DNA of 64,000 nucleotides from Fistulifera solaris (Eukaryota; Bacillariophyta; Bacillariophyceae; Naviculales; Stauroneidaceae): contig AP026136.1 of assembly GCA_030295235.1 (NCBI GenBank), forward strand, positions 1,116,001-1,180,000. The letters are read 5' to 3'. Every line of letters starts with the position of its first letter. The first letter of the stretch is position 1. Below the pieces are notes generated by a model. That model saw only the letters and a list, made by a program, of their open reading frames with translations, searched no databases and had not been told where the DNA came from. This document shows positions 2-11,047 of the stretch, piece by piece. Made by a program: the position numbers and the translations under genes.

Positions 2-1213
2 AAGAATGGCCCCAAACCCCCCAAAGTTGAAGTTTCGACAGAGGTGGTAAATGATAACCGTGACGAATTTGGAACGACGCTTGTTTCCCTCTACGACAAG
101 TACGACTTGGATTGGGCTACTCTTTCCGACGCTGAATCCCCTCAAAGCAAATCGCTACTTTCTGTGACTGGTGCAGCGACATACGAAGGTATGGCGACTG
201 CCAAGAAGGTTCAGCGTTACGCTCTGGGTGTTTTCTACTATTCGACATTCATGCGCGCACATGCCGAGTGGACCGACCCTACCGATTGGGTGTCTTCTCA
301 TGGGTGGTTGACTTCCGCAGATGAGTGCGAATGGGAGGGTATTGTTTGCGATAGTGCAACTGGAAAAGTCACCGGTATTCTACTGTCCAAACATGCGCTC
401 TCTGGTTATCTTCCTCTCGAGCTTGCTCTTTTGGACCAATTGCAGGAGCTCGATCTCGCAAGTAACTTTATTCATATGACTGAAAGTGAGCACCATGGAC
501 TCCGTGTCTTTGGCATGCTCCCGAAGCTTGTCAAACTTCAAATGGACGACAACTACGTAATGACGGAAGGAACTGGTCTCCCCTCTAGCTTTTCGAAATT
601 GACCAATCTGGAGCGCCTGTCTATGTCTTACAATCTTTTACAGGGAAACATCGATGGTGCTGTCGTGTCACAGATGCAAAAGTTGACTCATTTGGAGATT
701 GAATCAAACTATCTTTCGGGAGAAATCCCTGTCGAGCTTGGTCAGCTTCCGAATCTCTTCTACCTTTACTTGCGCCGCAACGCACTCACTATCGACCTGA
801 CTGAACTTTTTGTAAACCAGGTCGGTTCGTACAAGGAGATCTTCTCTCTCTGGCTTGATGACAACATCATTTCTGGCACTATTCCACCGGCCATCGGCCG
901 CTTGACCGGACTAGCGAGTTTGAGCATTACGAACACGACACTTGGCGGTTCTATCCCTTCCGAGATCGGGAACCTCTTTGACTTGCAAAGGCTCTGGCTT
1001 TATTCGAATGATCTCACAGGCAAGCTTCCGGATACACTTTCAAGCTTGGTGAACCTTCAAGTCCTCGAGATCTATAACAATGAAATAACGGGAAAAGTAC
1101 CAGAAGCAGTCTGTAATGCCGTTCAAACCGCCGATTACGATTTCCGTTCGATGATGGTGGATTGCAGTATGATCGAGTGCCCCGTGGGTACTTGCTGTAC
1201 AGAGTGTTACTAA
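2..1213 (+). CDS. leucine-rich repeat protein, 5' partial
   Basis: The frame is open from base 2, so the true start lies before the window; the first in-window ATG is internal. The protein has a plant-type LRR N-cap (W followed by CEWEGIVC) and then about eight LRRs of the LxxLxLxxNxLxGxIPxxL type. It ends in a cysteine-rich tail, CSMIECPVGTCCTECY. Family knowledge: diatoms have many secreted or membrane LRR proteins with this short Cys-rich tail; ligands are unknown. No kinase or TM segment is visible in the part seen. The stop TAA is at 1211-1213. It is convergent with the Nudix gene. The LRR call is secure; the role (adhesion, recognition) is only inferred. Confidence 0.85.
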   Translation, partial: KNGPKPPKVEVSTEVVNDNRDEFGTTLVSLYDKYDLDWATLSDAESPQSKSLLSVTGAATYEGMATAKKVQRYALGVFYYSTFMRAHAEWTDPTDWVSSHGWLTSADECEWEGIVCDSATGKVTGILLSKHALSGYLPLELALLDQLQELDLASNFIHMTESEHHGLRVFGMLPKLVKLQMDDNYVMTEGTGLPSSFSKLTNLERLSMSYNLLQGNIDGAVVSQMQKLTHLEIESNYLSGEIPVELGQLPNLFYLYLRRNALTIDLTELFVNQVGSYKEIFSLWLDDNIISGTIPPAIGRLTGLASLSITNTTLGGSIPSEIGNLFDLQRLWLYSNDLTGKLPDTLSSLVNLQVLEIYNNEITGKVPEAVCNAVQTADYDFRSMMVDCSMIECPVGTCCTECY

Positions 1214-1334
1214 ATCGGCTCTGTTTGAAAAGCATATCAAATTTTAGTTTTTCTTTATAAACAATAAACTAATTATCAGGAAACAGCTGCTTGCTTTTGT
1301 TAGCTAGCGTGGACAGCTATCTCTTTGTTGCGAG

Positions 1335-2705
1335 CTAGAAAATGTTGTGTGTTGGTGTATGCAAGAAACGTCTACAACCATGACGCATCTGGTACCGGTA
1401 CTTCCTCTGGTGGAATCTCTCCGCGCCGCTGACTCTGTCCTCCTTTTGACGCCGAACAATGGGATACAAAATGTCTTTTGCAAATCGCTGTAAAATATAC
1501 CCGGAAAGACCCCAAACGACATCCGGACCACCCGTAAATATAGGGGCAAATCCATCTCGGTGGATCCACAAAGATCGATCTAATAAATTTGAAAGAGGCA
1601 CTGTGAATACTTGCGCTACTTCCTCTGCATTTGGCAGTAAATGCTCGGGCAGCTCACCCCAATAGCATACCACCGGAGTGACCTGGAGGTACCATTAAAG
1701 TGTGAGAATCGCCTTTTCACACGTTGTTATCTTGTATGACGCACGATTAATACAGCAGTGAATACTCACCGCAATGTTCACAAGATGTTGTATATCGCCC
1801 CAGTTACACCGTAAAACACCCAATACATCGACAGGTTCATCCGGTAATCCATTGATTTCTTCTTTCATCTCACGTAGGCACGTACTCACAATACTCGGAT
1901 CTTGAACATCACACACCATTCCACCCGGCAGAGCAACTTCATCGGGATATGATCGTAAATGCGACGCCCGCTTCTCCAATAAAATACAAGGGACTCCATC
2001 AACCGTGCAAAGCGCAATAACCACACCCGCTCGTTTATCATGCGCTTGCGTTACAGTACGCGGCATTCGCATAAGCGCCTTCCGTATCAACTCCAAGTTG
2101 TTCCGATGCAGCGATTGTGTAAGATCGAGAATCGGCGGTGATGGTGCCCCTTTGGATGGCGTTTTCGGTCCATATCTTCGCTCTAACACATACCTGGGAT
2201 GATAAACTCGTAAAAAGTCACGCAAAGCATCCCACTTTTCTTCATCACACAGCATGGCGGCATATTGAAGAGCATCTTCTCTATCACGGAGCGCCGAAGC
2301 AATCGCCTTGACGGTATAGTTTTCACACATAATGAGCATATCGGTGGCGGGATCGGCATGTAGCACCCCCAATCGCTGTTGCGGCATACTTCCTTGCAAC
2401 TCCTGAGCCTCCATTCGCTTGAAAAGACGAGGCAGCTCATCGCCGTCCTTCTTGACATTATCAACAACTCGTTCTTTCCAAAATTCGTAATTTCTTTTGT
2501 CTGTAGAGAGATGGGCCAGTTGATCCGGCCACACACCTTTCCATAATCTTTGTGCGGTGGGTGTAGAGTTGGAAACTTCCGGAGGTTTGTCGAGAGAGTG
2601 CGGAGTGTAACTGGTCGAAGAAGAACACCGGACGAATCTTGTGACAATTCGTTCCGGCAAAGCAAGCCGCCACATCGCGTGCGAACGTCGCATGAAAGGC
2701 ATCAT
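1335..2705 (-). CDS. Nudix hydrolase, NUDT7/8 CoA-pyrophosphatase type
   Basis: Two exons, 2705-1770 and 1682-1335, flank an 87-bp GT-AG intron (1769-1683), giving about 427 aa. The N-terminus (MMPFMRRSHAMWRLALPER) is basic and lacks acids, like a mitochondrial presequence. Residues about 40-190 are a novel extension. The Nudix box lies near residue 265 (LPGG...REMKEEIN). Exon 2 carries the VTPVV, NAEEVAQVF and WGLSGYIL blocks typical of the CoA-diphosphatase subgroup that trims CoA and acyl-CoA. The GxU end of the box reads ING instead of IGL. Substrate is inferred from family. Confidence 0.8.
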
Positions 2706-3246
2706 GATGACTCAAACTATTTGATTGTGTTTCTTATCTTGTTCCTGACGATTGAGTGTCTATAAAATGTATTCGGTTGATCAACAACAACGCAGCACCA
2801 TGCAATCAGAAATAAAATAAAATTAGTGCGAGCGCATTATAAAGAAGCCGTTGTGAGTTGTGAGAAAAAGACATGTCTATGTCGTCATCAATCACAATGT
2901 ACAATGTCGACCCACTCATGACAGATTTATCTAGGAAGGTGCGGGAAAAAGTGTACATTCACGTAGGCCCACGAAGAGAAATGTACCAAGCAGAGGTGCG
3001 TTCCCGTGTCTCCCAGTCGTGGGTAAACACTGATCTTTGTTTGTGTTTTGGCTATTCTTCTACACTATTCAAGCTAGCGGTATCCACAAATTATGTGAGA
3101 AACGTGCTACTTGGTTCGTGACTCGACTCAAAGCGGAGCACGACCCTTTTCAATAAAAAAAAAAAGCACGAAACATTTTATAATTTGCTGCTTTGATTGC
3201 TCTTGTCGTTCAACATTTTTCAGCTTGACTGCGATAGATATACGCA
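2706..3246. other. intergenic, divergent promoter region
   Basis: This 541-bp space lies between the divergent Nudix and p24 genes and probably holds both promoters. A small open frame at 2873-3121 shows no recognisable domain. A run of ten A residues sits near 3160. Nothing else stands out. Confidence 0.5.
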
Positions 3247-4039
3247 ATGACTTTACCTTTCCTTCTTTTTTCTCTCGCATGGATAGCGCCAACGGCGTTG
3301 TCGACGTATATGCTGGAACTGACTCCCGGAACGCGAGAATGCTTTTACACCAAGTTACCCGGGAGAGCGACCATTGTTAGGTACGTAAAATGGTTCCCTT
3401 TCGCATCGCATCGACGCATAGAGACTCTTTTACTAGATAAAAAGATTGAGACGTGATATGTAATGACGTTCATCCTTACGTCTGCCTGTGTGATATTTTA
3501 TTACTTTTTTGCAGCGGTAATTACGATATCATCGATGACGACATACCGGGAGATTATTTGAGTGTCACATTGCAAAATACACTGGCCGAAGACGGCAAGC
3601 GATTGTGGCACAATGAACCGGGATCGACGGAGGGGATTTTTAGTTTAACGGTCGATCGTGGCCTTCGATTGGCCTTTTGTTTTGAATTTCGAGAAATCAG
3701 TGATGATGAAACAGAAACGATCGTCGAACAATTGTTGATTGGATGGAATATTCGAGTGCACGCAATACCAAGAGAGTTACCCGATGGGGAAAGTGGCCCT
3801 GATACTGAGCGGGCCCGGCGGTTGTTGGAGAAGGCAGTGAATATTGAAATGGATTGGTCCAACTTGATGGATCATTTTGCCTTTTGAGGAGTCGAGAAGC
3901 GGTGCACATGAAACTTACCTCCGACATATTAAATCGCATTATGGGATGGACACTCGTAGAAGCCTTTGTGGTGATGGCCATGGCTTTCTTGCAAGTCATG
4001 TACTGGAAAAAGTTCTTCGAGCAGAGGCGGTATCTTTAG
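3247..4039 (+). CDS. p24/TMED family cargo receptor (GOLD domain), frame break
   Basis: Exon 1 (3247-3380) encodes a signal peptide and the start of the GOLD domain. A 134-bp intron (3381-3514) follows, then exon 2 from 3515. The domain ends in a coiled stretch, the p24 hallmark LRSREAVHMKLTSD, one TM segment and the tail KKFFEQRRYL. That tail has the FF COPII signal and a basic pair at -4/-3. The frame breaks in the T-run 3882-3885; one more T restores ...HFAFLRSREA..., so this is likely an assembly error. Family role: ER-Golgi cargo sorting in COPI/COPII vesicles. Length about 215 aa is normal for the family. Confidence 0.87.
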
Positions 4040-4629
4040 ATAATGACTCCAAAGAGCAGAAGTATTATCAGTGTCAAACAGTTGGCCAATACAACTAGAA
4101 TTTATTCTAATGCGCTAATAACATTGTAAAAACTCCTGAATAGTCTCGCCTTCGAACAAAGGGTCGCGATGCACGATCTGCCCCGCGCACATTGGGCTCG
4201 AACTCTAGGGAACTCCTAGAGAGCCTTGCCTTGAGAAAGATTCGACACAAGTTAGCAAGGATAACGCCGCTTTTTTTTCAAATAATTTGTCTGTAATGGG
4301 TCACGACAATCGCTTATGCATAAAATCTACCTCGTGACTGAATCCAGTCTTGATAAAAAGCGGTCAACACTTTTGGACTATAGTCGAAATTGTAAAGTGC
4401 ACGAGCTCACGAAGAGGTTTCAGTGTCATTTCACAATTAACAAATGTGGATCTGCAGATTCATAACCAGATACTAATGAAAGGAAAAATCATTTCAGCAG
4501 CGAGAAAGACAACGTTAAAATTCTGGAGCAGGATGCTCATGACTCGCCGCTAATCCAGTCTGGAAAAGGTCGCTTACAGACAGAGGCTATAGTGAAAACT
4601 GAGGTGTTGCACGGAACATCGCATTATAT
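4040..4629. other. intergenic space before the transposon
   Basis: 590 bp with no credible gene. It holds one imperfect inverted repeat, CTCTAGG/CCTAGAG, at 4203-4221. It would have been the upstream region of COX20 before the transposon inserted, so it may contain displaced COX20 promoter sequence. Confidence 0.45.
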
Positions 4630-4638
4630 TACTACGTA
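4630..4638. repeat. target site duplication, left copy
   Basis: TACTACGTA directly abuts the left inverted repeat and recurs at 10492-10500 next to the right one. Nine bases is the standard duplication made by Mutator-superfamily transposases. Confidence 0.95.
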
Positions 4639-4768
4639 GGGAGACTTCCGTTAGGTCTCCAACCAGGGTGAACCTCTTCCGATAGCTCTCCCGTTAGGAG
4701 AGACGTTAACTGACTACATTCAACTTTACAGTAGAGTACGCGCCATTGGATGTGGTACTAATTACTTA
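4639..4768 (+). repeat. left terminal inverted repeat, 130 bp
   Basis: Exact reverse complement of 10362-10491. It contains two potential hairpins: GGAGAC/GTCTCC at 4640-4660 and CTCTCC/GGAGAG at 4686-4702. Both loops contain CGTTA. Confidence 0.95.
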
Positions 4769-4833
4769 AAGGCCTTCCATCCATCATTAGTTCTACTTAG
4801 GTCACGCACAATAACCGCACAATCGTTCGCGTT

Positions 4834-6846
4834 GTGCGTTTGTTCCGTTCCGACTGCCGACAAGATGATCAGAACGCTGCATTCCTTATTGTCATAGTTG
4901 CCCTTCCGTTCCTACTGTTGCTCTTTTACAACATTAACATGTCGATCATTGAAACGAAGGAGCGACGATCATTCGTCACGATTATGCAAAAATATGGGGC
5001 ACTTCCTCCAACCGGTCCGTATGATTTTGAAAAGTTTCTCTATGACAAACCGATCCCTGAGGATGATCACGAGGAGCTTCTCCGCAGCATCGCTTTTGTA
5101 ATGCGATCGAAAGCTCTTACGAGATGTCAGCAAGCACGGAGAAAGCCCTTGCTACGTGTGCACTTGCTGCAAAACGTTCTCACTTAAGTTCAAGGAAGAA
5201 AACGGCGAACTTCGATTGCTACACGACCATCCTAGTACTAACTTCAGGCACAGTTTGTTTTGCACTCCAACAAACGACCTCCCAAAGGACTGCCGCAGAA
5301 AATCAATGATAGTGCAGAACATTCCTGCTGTTCAAGACTTCTTCAAAACATGCTTCCAGGCACCAAACTTCGACAGTCATGCTACTCGCAAGAATCTCAA
5401 CGCCGTCCTCAGGAAAGAGGGTTTCGACATCGAAGTTGGCCCGACAATGCATTCAAATCTCAAGAAACACTTCCGTGAGGTCTACCCGAAAGGATTTGTT
5501 GATGTACAATGAGCTGTTGGCCCAGTATCTTCGGAAATATGTCGAGCTAAATCCAAATGCCTCCGTCAATTTAGAAACTGACCAGAACTCATGCTTTTTT
5601 CGGTCAACTGTGTTCATTGAGAATGCCGCGCACTTCTTTAGAAATGCCTGCATTCCTGCAATCTTTTAGACGGAACACACATCCGTATACCCCGAACACG
5701 ATGGAATTGGAGTCCCGATCATAGGGGTCGATGGAAATGGAAGTAACATTCCACTTGGTTTTGGGTTGATTCCCTCGGAAAACAAGCAAGGGATGATATA
5801 TATCCTTCTCATGATGTATCAAGCTGGGTTCAATTTCGAAGAGTTTCCAGTATTCACTGACCGAGGACACATTCTCGCCGCTGTCCGAGCGTTGGCAGAA
5901 CATTATGGACTGGTTGTTTCCGTGAAGTATTGCTTGATTCATATTCTTCAAACATTTACCATCTATTCAATATCAATCAACGATCGCTGAGAGGGCAGAG
6001 CGGTCGCTTGGTTTATGCGCGAGATGCAAAGCTCCAGATGTTAACGCCTTCTTGGATGCTGCGAAGAAGCTTGTCAAAGCGCTTCCACAAATTGAAGAAA
6101 ACGAAACTCTTAGTACCGGTGCGCGAATTGTTATCTATGTTCTTGGGACAATTCATCCTACTCATTGGACTGTGTTTGGAAATACACCGAGTCAACATGA
6201 ATCTATGTGGGAGCCCCTATATTTTACCTATCTAGCTGAAGTGAATGGCTTCACAGAGATAAGTGGAGACGTCGGCGAATGGAGGTGGTTGCTCAACGAT
6301 CACGTGCCAGTTGGAAACAAGTTCCCTTTATATGGTTTCTGTTCAACAAATCATGTCGAATCGGCCCAGCAGTGGCTTCTACATCATGAAGTGAGGACTA
6401 ATACCCCTCCACTAGCCATTTCTAACTTTTTGATGGCGGCTGCCGAATCTCTTCGACAATTTCGAGATGAAATAACAACCAAATCTGCTAGGTTCCTCAC
6501 CATATACTTTCGAAGCTTGCAAGATACAGGCAATGAAGATCTAGATTTTGTAATAGAGGATGCTGAAGGATGCCCCGATGGCAGTTTGAAATTCAAATTG
6601 TACGCTGAAAAGCACAAGAAGACGGAGTATGTTACTTATGAACCCACGAGCACTCCGTCCCTGTACTGCTCCTGCAGTAGAACAGCGATGCGGGAAATCT
6701 ACTGCGGCCACATCAACCTTGTTTCACGCATTACAAGATCCTCAACTTGGCCCTCAATCCCACCCTCTGTGTTTTCGCAATTCTACGAAGAGTTTGGAAA
6801 AGTTCCGACAAGTGGTGATCGCCGGCTTCCTTACAGAGTTTCTTAA
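4834..6846 (+). CDS. MULE transposase, fragmented
   Basis: Successive open segments occur near 4834-5187, 5120-5512, 5650-5960 and 6000-6846. They show a Cys-rich N-terminal finger (CYVCTCC near 5152), a DDE-like core with LLDGTHI (Asp codon 5669-5671) and FTDRGH (Asp codon 5859-5861), and the NHVESAQQW region typical of MULE transposases. A SWIM zinc finger CxC...CGH follows at 6667-6711. At least three frame changes separate the segments; one lies at the C-run 5690-5693, another near 5940. Role: binds the terminal repeats and cuts and rejoins DNA. The third catalytic acid could not be assigned with confidence. Confidence 0.8.
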
Positions 6847-7174
6847 CAACTATCCGCTGACTTGACGTCCCGGGATTTGGGGATATCAAGCTTGCTTATC
6901 AATCAGAAAACATTTATCCATCACCAACTTACACTGACAAGCTTAACTCGGGGAACAGAATAATCAGTAATGGTGAACCGGGACCACGTAAGTCAAAGAA
7001 AAAGAAGCAATCGGGCGCTGGAATCAGCACGAATGACAAAGGAGTATGAGCCAAGTTCAAAGAACAAGCTCAGTCGAAATAACGATGCAATAGCAGAAGC
7101 GATTGCCGCCGATGGTCTGTTTGATTTTGGGACCAAACCAAAGGCGGAACACATGCAACAGCTAGAATCAACTC

Positions 7175-7810
7175 TTGGACGAACGAGACGGCAAGCCCTT
7201 ACCTCGGCACTGCTTTCACTGCAGATCACCGAATCACACAATTCGACAGTGTCTGGACTACCTCAAAGATGATCGAAGGTACATGGATCCTGCATTACTT
7301 GAAACTGGCGCAATTCTGGTCAACCATTTCCCAACATGCGTCATTGACATGGATGCAGGAATTACTTCTGAAGATTTGGACAACGATGATACCTCCGGAG
7401 GACATGGCCTTCACAATATTGACAAGATTGGCTTAGTAGAAGACTCTGATGCAGCCAATGCCATTGTCCAGTCACGGATTTTAAAGCTTACTGGAGAAGA
7501 CGCTGCAGAAATTCACGCTGAAGACGACAACGAAAATAACTATCTTCTGGATATGGACCTTGCTCCGTCAGGTAGTAACCGAGATATTGTAGTAATTATT
7601 CGTGACAAGGATTACACGGAAAGAAGAAGTCACGAACAAGAATTGACCATGGTTGATGATGTCGAGGTAGGCATCCATGACGATTCCCGTCTGAACAGTG
7701 CACACTCGGGTCATCTGTCGACAATTCTAGAGGATGAAGATGTGGAACCAAGCACCGCACATAATGCTTTTGCCTCAAGTCCCGCGAACAACAGAATATT
7801 CAGTAAATGA
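7175..7810 (+). CDS. zinc-knuckle (CCHC) and acidic segment of the MULE
   Basis: The open frame has no ATG start and probably continues the transposase or a second element gene. A textbook CX2CX4HX4C knuckle (CFHCRSPNHTIRQC) lies at 7211-7252, a common C-terminal feature of MULE transposases. About 180 mostly acidic residues without a known domain follow. It ends in the first SPA repeat (AFASSPANN). Upstream, at about 6990-7010, a basic GPRKSKKKK stretch may be the linker to the SWIM region. Confidence 0.6.
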   Translation: MDERDGKPLPRHCFHCRSPNHTIRQCLDYLKDDRRYMDPALLETGAILVNHFPTCVIDMDAGITSEDLDNDDTSGGHGLHNIDKIGLVEDSDAANAIVQSRILKLTGEDAAEIHAEDDNENNYLLDMDLAPSGSNRDIVVIIRDKDYTERRSHEQELTMVDDVEVGIHDDSRLNSAHSGHLSTILEDEDVEPSTAHNAFASSPANNRIFSK

Positions 7811-9121
7811 AATGCCAACAACTAGAACAAAGAGGAGATCCAAACAAGTAACGAATTTAAAAGCGCAGAAGGCAAGTCCATCTACCGCAAAGTCATCGAT
7901 ATTGAAGACAGCGACCGCATCCAGACCGAATTTGAAACCACCGCCGACCACAACAGCTTGTGCTTCCAGTCCAGCAACAACAGATTTTTCATTAGTCAAA
8001 ATGGCAACGAGAAAGAGGAAAACGGCCGAAACAGCCACCAAATCAAAAAGCTGAAGGAACAAGTCCCGCCACAACTGATTCGTCAATCTTTGAGAGGCCG
8101 ACCATGAAGAGTCAAAATCTGAAGCCACCACCTGATATCAGAGCTCATGCCTTGACTATCGAGTCTTCAATGAATGAGAATACAACACAAAAAGGAAAAG
8201 ATCGAAACTGACAGCAAATTCCAGAGCCAAAGGCCCGACTCATGCCCGTGAAAAAGAAGTTGAAACCGCCACCGATTGCAGAAGCAAAAGCAGGAAGTCC
8301 CGCCACAGCAGTTTCTTCCATAGTTGAGATGCCAACTATGAAGAGGGGTAATCTGAGAGCACTGCCAAGATCTCATTCAAACAGTCCAACAACCGAAGTA
8401 TCACGATTCCTGAAGATATGATTATAAAGATACCGAAGACAGAACCCACTAATGCAAGTCCCGCCCACGTCTGCTAGTGACGATTCATCACATGTATTTA
8501 AAAGGCGATTAGACATCCAAAAGAAGAATGCAAGTCCCGCCAAATCCGGTAATCTCAGTGACGATTCGTCGCATTTCCTGAAAATGCCGCTAGATCTGCG
8601 AAGAAAGAACTTGGCACAAAATGAAGCGCTCTCAAGTTCATTTTCAGTGGGTATTCCGAAAACCAGAAGAACTCAGAGCTATAACAAGTCCCGCTACTGC
8701 CACTAGTGGGACCTCATCACAATTCTTGAGAACACCCTTCGACCTGAGACGTAAGATTGTAGATCCCAGAAATGAAAATCAATTTTCATTACGTCGACAA
8801 CAAGTAAGGCAAATTGGAGTAGCCCCTTTGCAACCCCCAGTCATTACTGATGAACCATCAAAGATCGTATCCTATTTTTACGACACAGCTTATCCATTTG
8901 TGGGAACCATTGAGCAATTAAATTGTTTGGTTCAAGAACACGAGTTTGATATTCCAGAATCATTTACGGAAACGGAAACAAATGATTTAACGATGAAAAG
9001 AAGGGCTTCAACCCGAAAACGCAAGGGCGCAAACCAGCGAGGACTTGTGAGTGAGAACAATATTGCAATCCACGCAGCGGAATACTCTTGCAGAGACAGC
9101 AAAAGGAAAGAAGTGGAATAG
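7777..9121 (+). CDS. repeat-rich MULE accessory coding region
   Basis: Open segments in more than one frame (notably 8452-8706 and 8621-9121) encode recurring units of about 25-40 residues. Each begins SPA(T/K) and ends around FLKxPLDLRRKN. At the DNA level the core AAGTCCCGC recurs exactly at 7777, 8061, 8295, 8456, 8532 and 8686, with degenerate copies between. A C-terminal part (8800-9120) has a basic KRRASTRKRKG cluster. No known domain was recognised. It may be the N-terminal part of the Ulp1-like protein that follows, or a separate DNA-binding helper. Confidence 0.55.
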
Positions 9122-9446
9122 AATCATTTATCACTGTAGGGACAAGAAAGAATGGAAACGATCTGATTTACAACAAAGAAGATGCCAGGGGATCTCTTCG
9201 GTCACTCCTTTTTGCAATCCAGTGCAAAGGGCGTTGATAAAGGTCGCTGAGTCGTCACGACCTGAAGAGGGAAAGAAGCATCATATCAAGGTGCTAGAGT
9301 GGTGCCACGGCATCCATAACCAGTGAATGCCTTGAAATTATGAACTCGCAATGTTATTTCAATGACGATTGTGAACAGTTTCCTTGAAAGCATAACAAGC
9401 AAGACCGTGAACGGATGAGGGAGTTATTGCACACCCGTCGTATGTC

Positions 9447-9994
9447 ATGAGTAATCTGTGGGATTCCGCCAACCAAAATATTAAGAGAGAGGGTAGACTG
9501 CAGCTTAGTTCAGCGTTTGTGGCATTGAATTCTATGACAAAATCGAACAATTTGGGCATTCATTTATTCCCTATGTGCAAGGAGAGGCACTGGTGGTTGA
9601 TGGTGGTTGATGCCGATAATCGAGTTATTTATTCGCTCGACTCCCTCGAAGATCCGGACGATCACTACTCTAATGCTGTCTGGCTTTCAGGTTTATTTAA
9701 ATTGCGTGCGGTGAGGCAGCAATTAGAATGCCGTCAACAAGCGAGCAGCAGGAATCAACATTACCCGATTTAGCTCCGTGGGAATACCAAGAAATGCGTC
9801 TTCCCAATAAACTATTGCAACATGATGGCCATAGTTGCGGACCATATGTATGTTTTTATGCGGCGACAATTCTGAAACATGGTCGACGTGCCCTCAATGA
9901 GAGGACATGGTTCCTTGACTCTATTTCGGAGATTGGAGTCGGAGATGATCTCCGACCTTTTGTATTTGATGTTATGTTTCAATTGGCTGAATGA
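9447..9994 (+). CDS. Ulp1/SENP-like cysteine peptidase (C48) of the MULE
   Basis: The C48 core is clear: His in KERHWWLMVV (codon 9588-9590), Asp in YSLDSLED (9639-9641), oxyanion Gln (9818-9820) in LLQHDGHSCGPY, and the nucleophile Cys (9836-9838). All four catalytic positions are present, which suggests recent selection. The frame changes once near 9690-9725; one extra T at the TT before 9700 would join the halves as FKFACGEAA. An N-terminal start is not evident; it may be fused to the preceding repeat region. Family role: removal of SUMO or other ubiquitin-like proteins. Its use to the transposon is unknown. Confidence 0.8.
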
Positions 9995-10113
9995 CACGTA
10001 TAGAGTAATGTGTGATATTAATCAACCAAGTCTAGTTTGAAACTGAAATTGTGTAGATTGGGTTTTGATTATTTACACGAAGTAGTTTTCGACGAAAGCC
10101 TTGATCGGTGGAA

Positions 10114-10254
10114 GGTCACGTAGGCTGGGTTTTTTCTTTATTGGAAGGTCGCGCTCGCTGCATCAGGGTCACGTAGGCTGGTTTTTCTTTATTGACAATT
10201 GAGAGCGGTCGCGCTCGCTGACTTTTTCTTTATCAAGAGCGGTCGCGCTCGCTG
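10114..10254. repeat. subterminal repeats near the right end of the MULE
   Basis: Two 15-mers GGTCACGTAGGCTGG (10114-10128, 10167-10181) interleave with three 14-mers GGTCGCGCTCGCTG (10147-10160, 10207-10220, 10241-10254), separated by TTTTTCTTTAT stretches. The left end has no matching array. Subterminal arrays are often transposase-binding sites; that role is inferred here. Confidence 0.75.
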
Positions 10255-10361
10255 ACTATTGTTTATTGAGGATTTGGTTATCTTAGAGGGGTGATTCATG
10301 AATCATCCGGGACTGTCATTCATAAGGCTTTGTTACTTTATCGAGCAACCTAAGTAGATTC

Positions 10362-10491
10362 TAAGTAATTAGTACCACATCCAATGGCGCGTACTCTACT
10401 GTAAAGTTGAATGTAGTCAGTTAACGTCTCTCCTAACGGGAGAGCTATCGGAAGAGGTTCACCCTGGTTGGAGACCTAACGGAAGTCTCCC
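10362..10491 (-). repeat. right terminal inverted repeat, 130 bp
   Basis: Exact reverse complement of 4639-4768; the match ends inward at the shared ACTAATTACTTA. Confidence 0.95.
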
Positions 10492-10500
10492 TACTACGTA
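10492..10500. repeat. target site duplication, right copy
   Basis: TACTACGTA, identical to 4630-4638. Confidence 0.95.
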
Positions 10501-10564: not shown

Positions 10565-11047
10565 ATGGATGATTCGACAACCACCAACGAACCACAGTGG
10601 ATTCAGCATCTACCAGAAGCTCTGGGCATCCGCAAAGCCGTGCAACAGAGTAAATATCGATGGTGTGTACGAGAATCGGCCATGTGGGGGATTGCCACCG
10701 GTACGGCCATGTCGTTGCACCGACTTCGCATGCGATCGCCGTGGGCTATTAACGCCGGCTTTCTCAGTTTCTTTACCGTATATACTGGGTCGTATTATTT
10801 TTGTGTGAAACGACGCGACTATAAAGAACAAGTTATTGAAATGATGATGAAATTGAATTCGTTTCAAACTGCAGCGGATATGCCCGAGCCCGTGCCTGTC
10901 GATGAGAATCATCCGTTTGTTTCTCCCGAAGGTGATATCCCTGGAGAGCGACAATATGTCGCTAATTTACCGGAGCGAAAGGAATGGCAAAAGCAGCTTC
11001 CTACACAAGATGCGGCATCGATATTTGTAGAAGATAAAAGGAAATAG
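10565..11047 (+). CDS. COX20: COX20-like cytochrome c oxidase assembly protein
   Basis: 160 aa from the ATG at 10565; the frame opens slightly earlier but without an ATG. Two predicted TM helices (around AMWGIATGTAMSLHRLRM and AINAGFLSFFTVYTGSYYF) and the flanking CVRESAMWG and CVKRRDY match the COX20/FAM36A family, a mitochondrial inner-membrane chaperone for COX2 maturation. The C-terminal 60 residues are acidic and soluble. The transposon end lies only 73 bp upstream of the ATG, so the 5' leader or core promoter is likely transposon-adjacent. It is convergent with MLYCD. Confidence 0.75.
   Translation: MDDSTTTNEPQWIQHLPEALGIRKAVQQSKYRWCVRESAMWGIATGTAMSLHRLRMRSPWAINAGFLSFFTVYTGSYYFCVKRRDYKEQVIEMMMKLNSFQTAADMPEPVPVDENHPFVSPEGDIPGERQYVANLPERKEWQKQLPTQDAASIFVEDKRK

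Follow-up and report, generated by a model that had tools for sequence, protein, structure and literature searches.

Mutator-like elements (MULEs) from diatoms and MULEs bearing a ULP gene are both already in print (PMC6446971, PMC8329260, PMC2528002, PMC6117577). As far as these reports go, MULEs carrying ULP occur in Arabidopsis, melon, rice and grapevine (PMC2528002, PMC6117577), and a MULE expansion was described for a diatom, Nitzschia inconspicua, whose genome was assembled from PacBio reads (PMC8329260). The main text of the 2019 Mutator survey that contains the diatom group MULE-Diatoms (group 37; PMC6446971) makes no use of the terms Ulp1, C48, peptidase, ULP or protease, and a literature search, judged by top-ranked titles and the beginnings of abstracts and with subscription journals mostly outside its reach, yielded no diatom MULE with Ulp1. 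The element analyzed here lies at positions 4639-10491 of a 64,000-nucleotide stretch of the Fistulifera solaris genome (contig AP026136.1, positions 1,116,001 to 1,180,000), in the following called the window. A preliminary description of this element, made from the letters alone, had assumed that few complete Mutator elements are known from diatoms. Diatom DNA transposons do, in our reading, seem thinly described, but the assumption has to be qualified in view of the diatom MULEs reported in parts of the literature (PMC6446971, PMC8329260).

The reading we favor, with a probability of roughly 0.88, is that of a recent, autonomous-type MULE present in at least 24 copies on both subgenomes of an allodiploid-like diatom, with an Ulp1-like protease as standing component and with differences between copies that are mostly base-calling errors at CpG sites. 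The element spans 5,853 bp and is bounded by perfect inverted repeats of 130 bp and a 9-bp target-site duplication (TSD), TACTACGTA, on both sides, as the preliminary description had stated (Table 1). A repeat finder returned inverted arms of 133 nt with 100% identity (4636-4768 and 10362-10494); the element's own repeat is nevertheless 130 bp and not 133 bp long, because the outer three bases (TAC...GTA) come from the target duplication.

The genome (51.7 Mb) was searched with the left 162 bases of the element, and 40 of the 48 candidates were scored, yielding 24 left ends with 162/162 matching bases and 16 right ends with 130/130. The 23 other copies (L009-L031) were fetched; together with the window copy this gives 24, which is a lower bound and refutes the absence of other copies that the preliminary description had named as evidence against its proposal. 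In total, 47 ends are known, all identical over 130 bp, and one of the 48 candidates is unaccounted for. Twenty copies measure 5.85-5.87 kb and have both ends, three measure 3.2 kb, and one (L017) is without a matching right end. Left and right repeats match at 100% over 130 bp in 23/23 copies having a right end (23/24 overall), and 22/24 copies are flanked by a 9-bp duplication, all of them different, 17 directly and five when one extra terminal G/C is allowed. A perfect 130-bp inverted pair with a 9-bp duplication that recurs at 21 other sites with other 9-mers is far beyond chance. Searches with inner stretches found 21 places for the transposase, 24 for Ulp1 and 23 for the right subterminal region, in addition to two weaker right subterminal matches (82% and 84%, on contigs C15 and C21). 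These counts agree with the 24 left ends, since there are 20 long copies, L017 lacks its right end and three copies are deleted. Mechanistically, the transposase would bind the two 130-bp ends and excise the element, which would then be inserted with a 9-bp staggered cut.

The three 3.2-kb copies (L009, L022, and L031) lack element bases 407-3059, corresponding to nearly all of the transposase, and share an identical junction, while being located at three sites with three different target duplications. The simplest scenario is a single deletion event, after which the short form spread using transposase supplied in trans. Alternatively, the deletion may have been copied into resident elements by gene conversion.

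Judged by sequence, the genome is that of a diatom, as it encodes silicon transporters (PF03842; 23 matches, the best with E 3.5e-222). Fistulifera solaris is described as allopolyploid with 42 chromosome pairs (PMC5935921), and a genome size of 49.7 Mb is given in a table of PMC8329260. In line with this, the contigs occur as syntenic pairs, and the right flank of the window matches contig C11 at 91%. A gene in this flank was used to locate the partner site, because a genome search with the left flank gave, besides itself, matches of 43-71 bases only and none on C11. When the flanks of the window copy were joined, they aligned through the insertion point on C11 without any element (573/709 columns, 81%), i.e., the homoeologous site is empty, which answers the check for an empty site proposed beforehand. 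A COX20-like gene (PF12597, E 2.5e-5; its 24.5 bits fall slightly short of the cut-off, 25) has its ATG at 10565, and the element lies 64 bp upstream of this ATG.

The partner test covered 21 copies, namely the window copy, L009-L017 (L017 partly) and L021-L031, leaving L018-L020 aside. For 18 of these, the window copy included, a place on the partner contig was found at 79-94% identity; it was fetched and aligned through for the window copy, and the other 17 places are taken to be empty on the basis of the copy list. None of the partner places is near a known copy, the closest being 17 kb away on C17; this is the partner place of L015, which lies about 17 kb from another copy. Copies are present on both members of the contig pairs C1/C2, C7/C8, and C17/C18. 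Since the partner flanks differ by 6-21% while the copies are nearly identical, and since both members of these three pairs carry copies, the burst most simply, and probably, came after the two genomes had met. The expansion of the family to at least 24 copies on both subgenomes would thus be very recent. The recent insertion proposed in the preliminary description is borne out by 24 near-identical copies and the empty homoeologous site, with the caveat that the identity of the ends was possibly helped by polishing.

This caveat follows from the distribution of differences between the copies. An alignment of 20 copies (the three short copies and L017 left out) comprised 5,856 positions, of which 261 were variable; 83% of these lie within 2 bp of a CpG, as compared to 26% of all positions. 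Indel events numbered 475 (333 of them of 1 bp) versus 353 substituted cells. Deamination resembling repeat-induced point mutation (RIP) was considered as a cause and rejected, since C>T and G>A are not dominant (A>G 83, G>A 56, C>T 43, T>C 34, others 137) and indels prevail. A four-gamete test gave a conflict of 0.61 for substitutions (shuffled mean 0.66, range 0.63-0.68) and of 0.548 for indels (shuffled mean 0.562, range 0.551-0.576; 20 shuffles each). Given the link of the variation to CpG, the excess of indels over substitutions and the near absence of tree signal, base-calling error rather than decay is the more plausible source. Nanopore consensus errors are reported to cluster in methylated motifs, in this case Dcm sites of bacteria (PMC6591954), and diatom methylation, as described for Cyclotella, is mainly at CpG and on repeats (PMC5124317). 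Most of the variation is therefore probably long-read error at CpG sites of a methylated repeat that short reads could not polish, whereby both the sequencing platform and the methylation are our supposition.

Counted from the left end, variable positions begin after about 200 bp, and from the right end at 243 bp. These terminal stretches contain 11 CpGs on the left and 8 on the right, and none of these 19 has a variant beside it, as opposed to 136/257 CpGs between positions 200 and 5613 with a variant within 4 bp. This pattern raises the question whether the perfect identity of the ends is partly an artefact, with short reads having corrected only the roughly 200 bp anchored beside unique flank. 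We regard this as evenly balanced against its opposite, since ends that are unmethylated would look alike and either cause would explain the clean ends. At a distance of at least 6 bp from any CpG, however, the interior is also almost identical, with 19 variable columns in 3,357 positions (by our reading nine in single-base runs, three in which the insertion itself creates a CpG, and seven neither), and a young age of the family can be argued without recourse to the ends.

Along the element, the domains are arranged in the order transposase, zinc knuckle, repeat-rich linker and Ulp1-like protease. Taken together, the overlapping or adjoining open reading frames (ORFs) of different copies cover nearly the whole interior, leaving a short gap at element positions 4481-4524, and Ulp1 may either be a separate second gene or form the end of the first one. 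The transposase start MSIIETKERRSFVTIMQKYG resembles, by eye, that of a single-copy relative on C38 (L036), and the search aligns from residue 13 of this relative. Three acidic motifs (DGTH, FTDRGH, and NHVES), which we take to be the catalytic residues of MULE transposases, are present in the element by alignment; its core in copy L016 aligned with that of a diverged MULE on C2 (L038) at E 1e-35. The CxCx9CxH motif of the window copy aligned with the SWIM domain of L036 and its partner L037, which alone pass the SWIM cut-off. The SWIM/zinc-knuckle transposase of the preliminary description agrees with motifs and alignments, and the repeat-rich coding region it had noted corresponds to the linker; by profiles, the domains of the element were confirmed in part, Ulp1 being the one over its cut-off. 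A Protein Data Bank (PDB) sequence search with a transposase piece gave no match, and a search of viral contigs with the transposase piece of the window copy gave 12 pattern matches, none of which was confirmed.

Table 1. Features of the element in the window; positions are those of the window unless given as element positions.
Feature	Position	Strand	Remarks
Left target-site duplication TACTACGTA	4630..4638	no strand	
Left terminal inverted repeat, 130 bp	4639..4768	+	same in 24/24 copies
Transposase N-terminal part	4939..5512	+	frame broken in assembly; no Pfam match to pieces
MULE DDE core, first two acidic residues (DGTH, FTDRGH)	5640..5937	+	frame broken in window copy
Transposase C-terminal half: NHVES third acidic residue and SWIM-type CxCx9CxH	5938..6843	+	open 302-aa frame; no own Pfam match
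Zinc knuckle CFHCRSPNHTIRQC (CX2CX4HX4C)	7211..7252	+	translation
Linker, about seven degenerate SPAT/SPAK units (counted by eye)	7787..8720	+	direct repeats D1, D2; ORFs of L029, L013
Ulp1/C48-like cysteine protease, His-Asp-Cys triad	9330..9994	+	frame broken in window copy
Right terminal inverted repeat, 130 bp	10362..10491	-	
Right target-site duplication TACTACGTA	10492..10500	no strand	
ORF, copy L017	element 163-1098		
ORF, copy L016	element 1001-1942		
ORF, window copy	element 1300-2205		
ORF, copy L029	element 2205-3464		
ORF, copy L013	element 3235-4356		
ORF, window copy	element 3956-4480		
ORF, copy L023	element 4525-5133		
ORF, copy L030	element 4784-5365		

Several observations weigh against a young, autonomous-type family. 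L015 (C18) lacks a target duplication despite perfect ends, and in L017 (C16) the right end is lost or garbled, its last ~280 bp not matching, so that the duplication cannot be judged there. By eye, the element end in L017 is mixed with host sequence at about 6602-7040, and two alleles, with and without the element, were perhaps merged in the assembly. The flanks of L015 and L017 do not match, for which reason the idea of a reciprocal exchange between the two was discarded. L010, L012, L024, L025, and L031 have one extra G/C (GGGG for GGG) at one or both ends; L025 can alternatively be read as having a 10-bp duplication. Among the 21 copies of the partner test, L012 and L016 have no partner place and L009 has only a weak one at 70%. 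On the protein level, the MULE domain PF10551 stays under its cut-off of 27.6 bits both in the element (copy L016, E 0.027, 15.3 bits) and in L038 (E 2.2e-5, 25.3 bits, model positions 2-99 of 99), and a profile search gave no Pfam match over cut-off for the SWIM domain and zinc knuckle of the element (zf-CCHC E 0.39 in L029 and 0.33 in L017). Additionally, the four-gamete conflict is slightly under the lowest of the 20 shuffles, and some of the variation, or a trace of relatedness, may be real. Above all, no copy is open throughout as assembled, the longest open stretch being 420 codons. The 'complete' MULE of the preliminary description thus stands with regard to structure but not to an intact frame, and autonomy is a candidate property only, as no copy has a full frame in the assembly. 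The last two points would also fit a family that died recently, i.e., a recent burst followed by real frameshifts in all copies, with only relics left, whose movement, if any, would depend on another element. We consider this improbable, because the variable positions are concentrated at CpG, indels exceed substitutions, the conflict is close to its shuffled values, and different copies are open in different stretches that jointly cover nearly the whole coding region. An autonomous-type family, which may be active at present, accordingly agrees better with the data.

The presence of an Ulp1-like gene, as noted in the preliminary description, was confirmed by PF02902, which is over cut-off in copy L030 (E 4.9e-8, 33.5 bits, cut-off 20.7); the window piece is under it (E 0.0012). 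Compared with SENP2 (1tgz), the element protein gives a weak match (E 0.017) in which H, D, and C are aligned, presumably the protease triad residues of SENP2. In the genome, the Ulp1 query matches two diverged MULEs, on C2 and C46, and one orphan on C18, and at E 1e-3 it finds none of six other Ulp1 places (C21, C34, two on C35, C40, and C41). As the two diverged MULEs also carry Ulp1, on the strand of their transposase, and the other Ulp1 places are unmatched, a protease retained by the MULE lineage as a standing component, as its sequence relationships seem to indicate, is favored over a fresh capture. A chance capture of a host gene of the Pack-MULE type, with no role for the element, is unlikely given these relatives and the kept triad, even though MULEs often capture genes and, for the ULP pieces of grapevine, either several acquisitions or frequent loss was concluded (PMC2528002). 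Most likely, the retained protease would serve to cleave SUMO or a related tag off proteins of the host or off the transposase.

Besides the places on C2 and C46, the transposase query found a single-copy pair on C38/C39. The C2 and C46 loci (L038:2113-6501 and L039:1796-6035) are diverged MULEs with transposase and Ulp1 relative on one strand and with perfect or near-perfect inverted repeats (243 nt in one, 120 and 98 nt in the other); inspection of their flanks revealed no target duplication. The single-copy pair (L036:2607-5288, +, C38; L037:2372-4606, +, C39) occupies syntenic places on partner contigs, has SWIM domains over cut-off, and shows no inverted repeats of at least 30 nt within the 9 kb fetched. 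Both have S in place of the second acidic residue; L037 additionally has A in place of the third and a frame shift near codon 718. Over 715 codons, dN is 0.035 and dS 0.23 (ratio 0.15); one neighbor gene has the same ratio (0.045/0.31, 440 codons). Judged from these sequences, the pair is a candidate for a domesticated MULE transposase. On C15, an element-like locus (L041:1769-7315) has 191-nt inverted repeats at 92% and no match to any transposase or Ulp1 query, and its middle matches the right subterminal region of the window element at 82%.

A more far-reaching and rather doubtful extension would be that a SUMO-type protease became fixed as a working part in a distinct diatom MULE lineage, one member of which burst through both subgenomes after an interspecies hybridization and is methylated by the host at CpG in its interior but not at its ends; the protease would then perhaps strip SUMO-dependent silencing or process a long transposase. 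Irrespective of this, the near identity of the 24 copies, the occurrence of a transposase-deleted derivative at three sites and the lack of the element at the homoeologous site provide a burst that can be dated against the genome merger, and the family is a candidate natural mobilization system for an alga. Broken genes inside young repeats of this assembly, moreover, probably reflect CpG base-calling errors and should not be taken as pseudogenes.

Compared with described systems, the element resembles MULE-Diatoms group 37 in its diatom host, a transposase with SWIM (in the element a SWIM-type motif) and the length of the terminal inverted repeats (TIRs; 123-124 bp versus 130 bp here). The table row of that group gives no TSD, or indicates none, one ORF and no extra feature (PMC6446971), whereas the window element has a 9-bp TSD, a zinc-knuckle motif and Ulp1, a distinction drawn from the table description. 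Ginger DNA transposons, for which Ulp1 is mentioned 21 times in PMC2836005, differ in that their transposase is described as integrase-like and is not of the MULE type. The ULP-bearing plant MULEs share with the window element the combination of a MULE with a C48/Ulp1 domain, and for grapevine and melon both direct-orientation and TIR forms are reported (PMC2528002, PMC6117577). Kaonashi, the KI-MULE of Arabidopsis, is described as having no TIRs and ULP in reverse orientation; the window element, with its long TIRs and with Ulp1 on the same strand as the transposase, is therefore not a KI-MULE.

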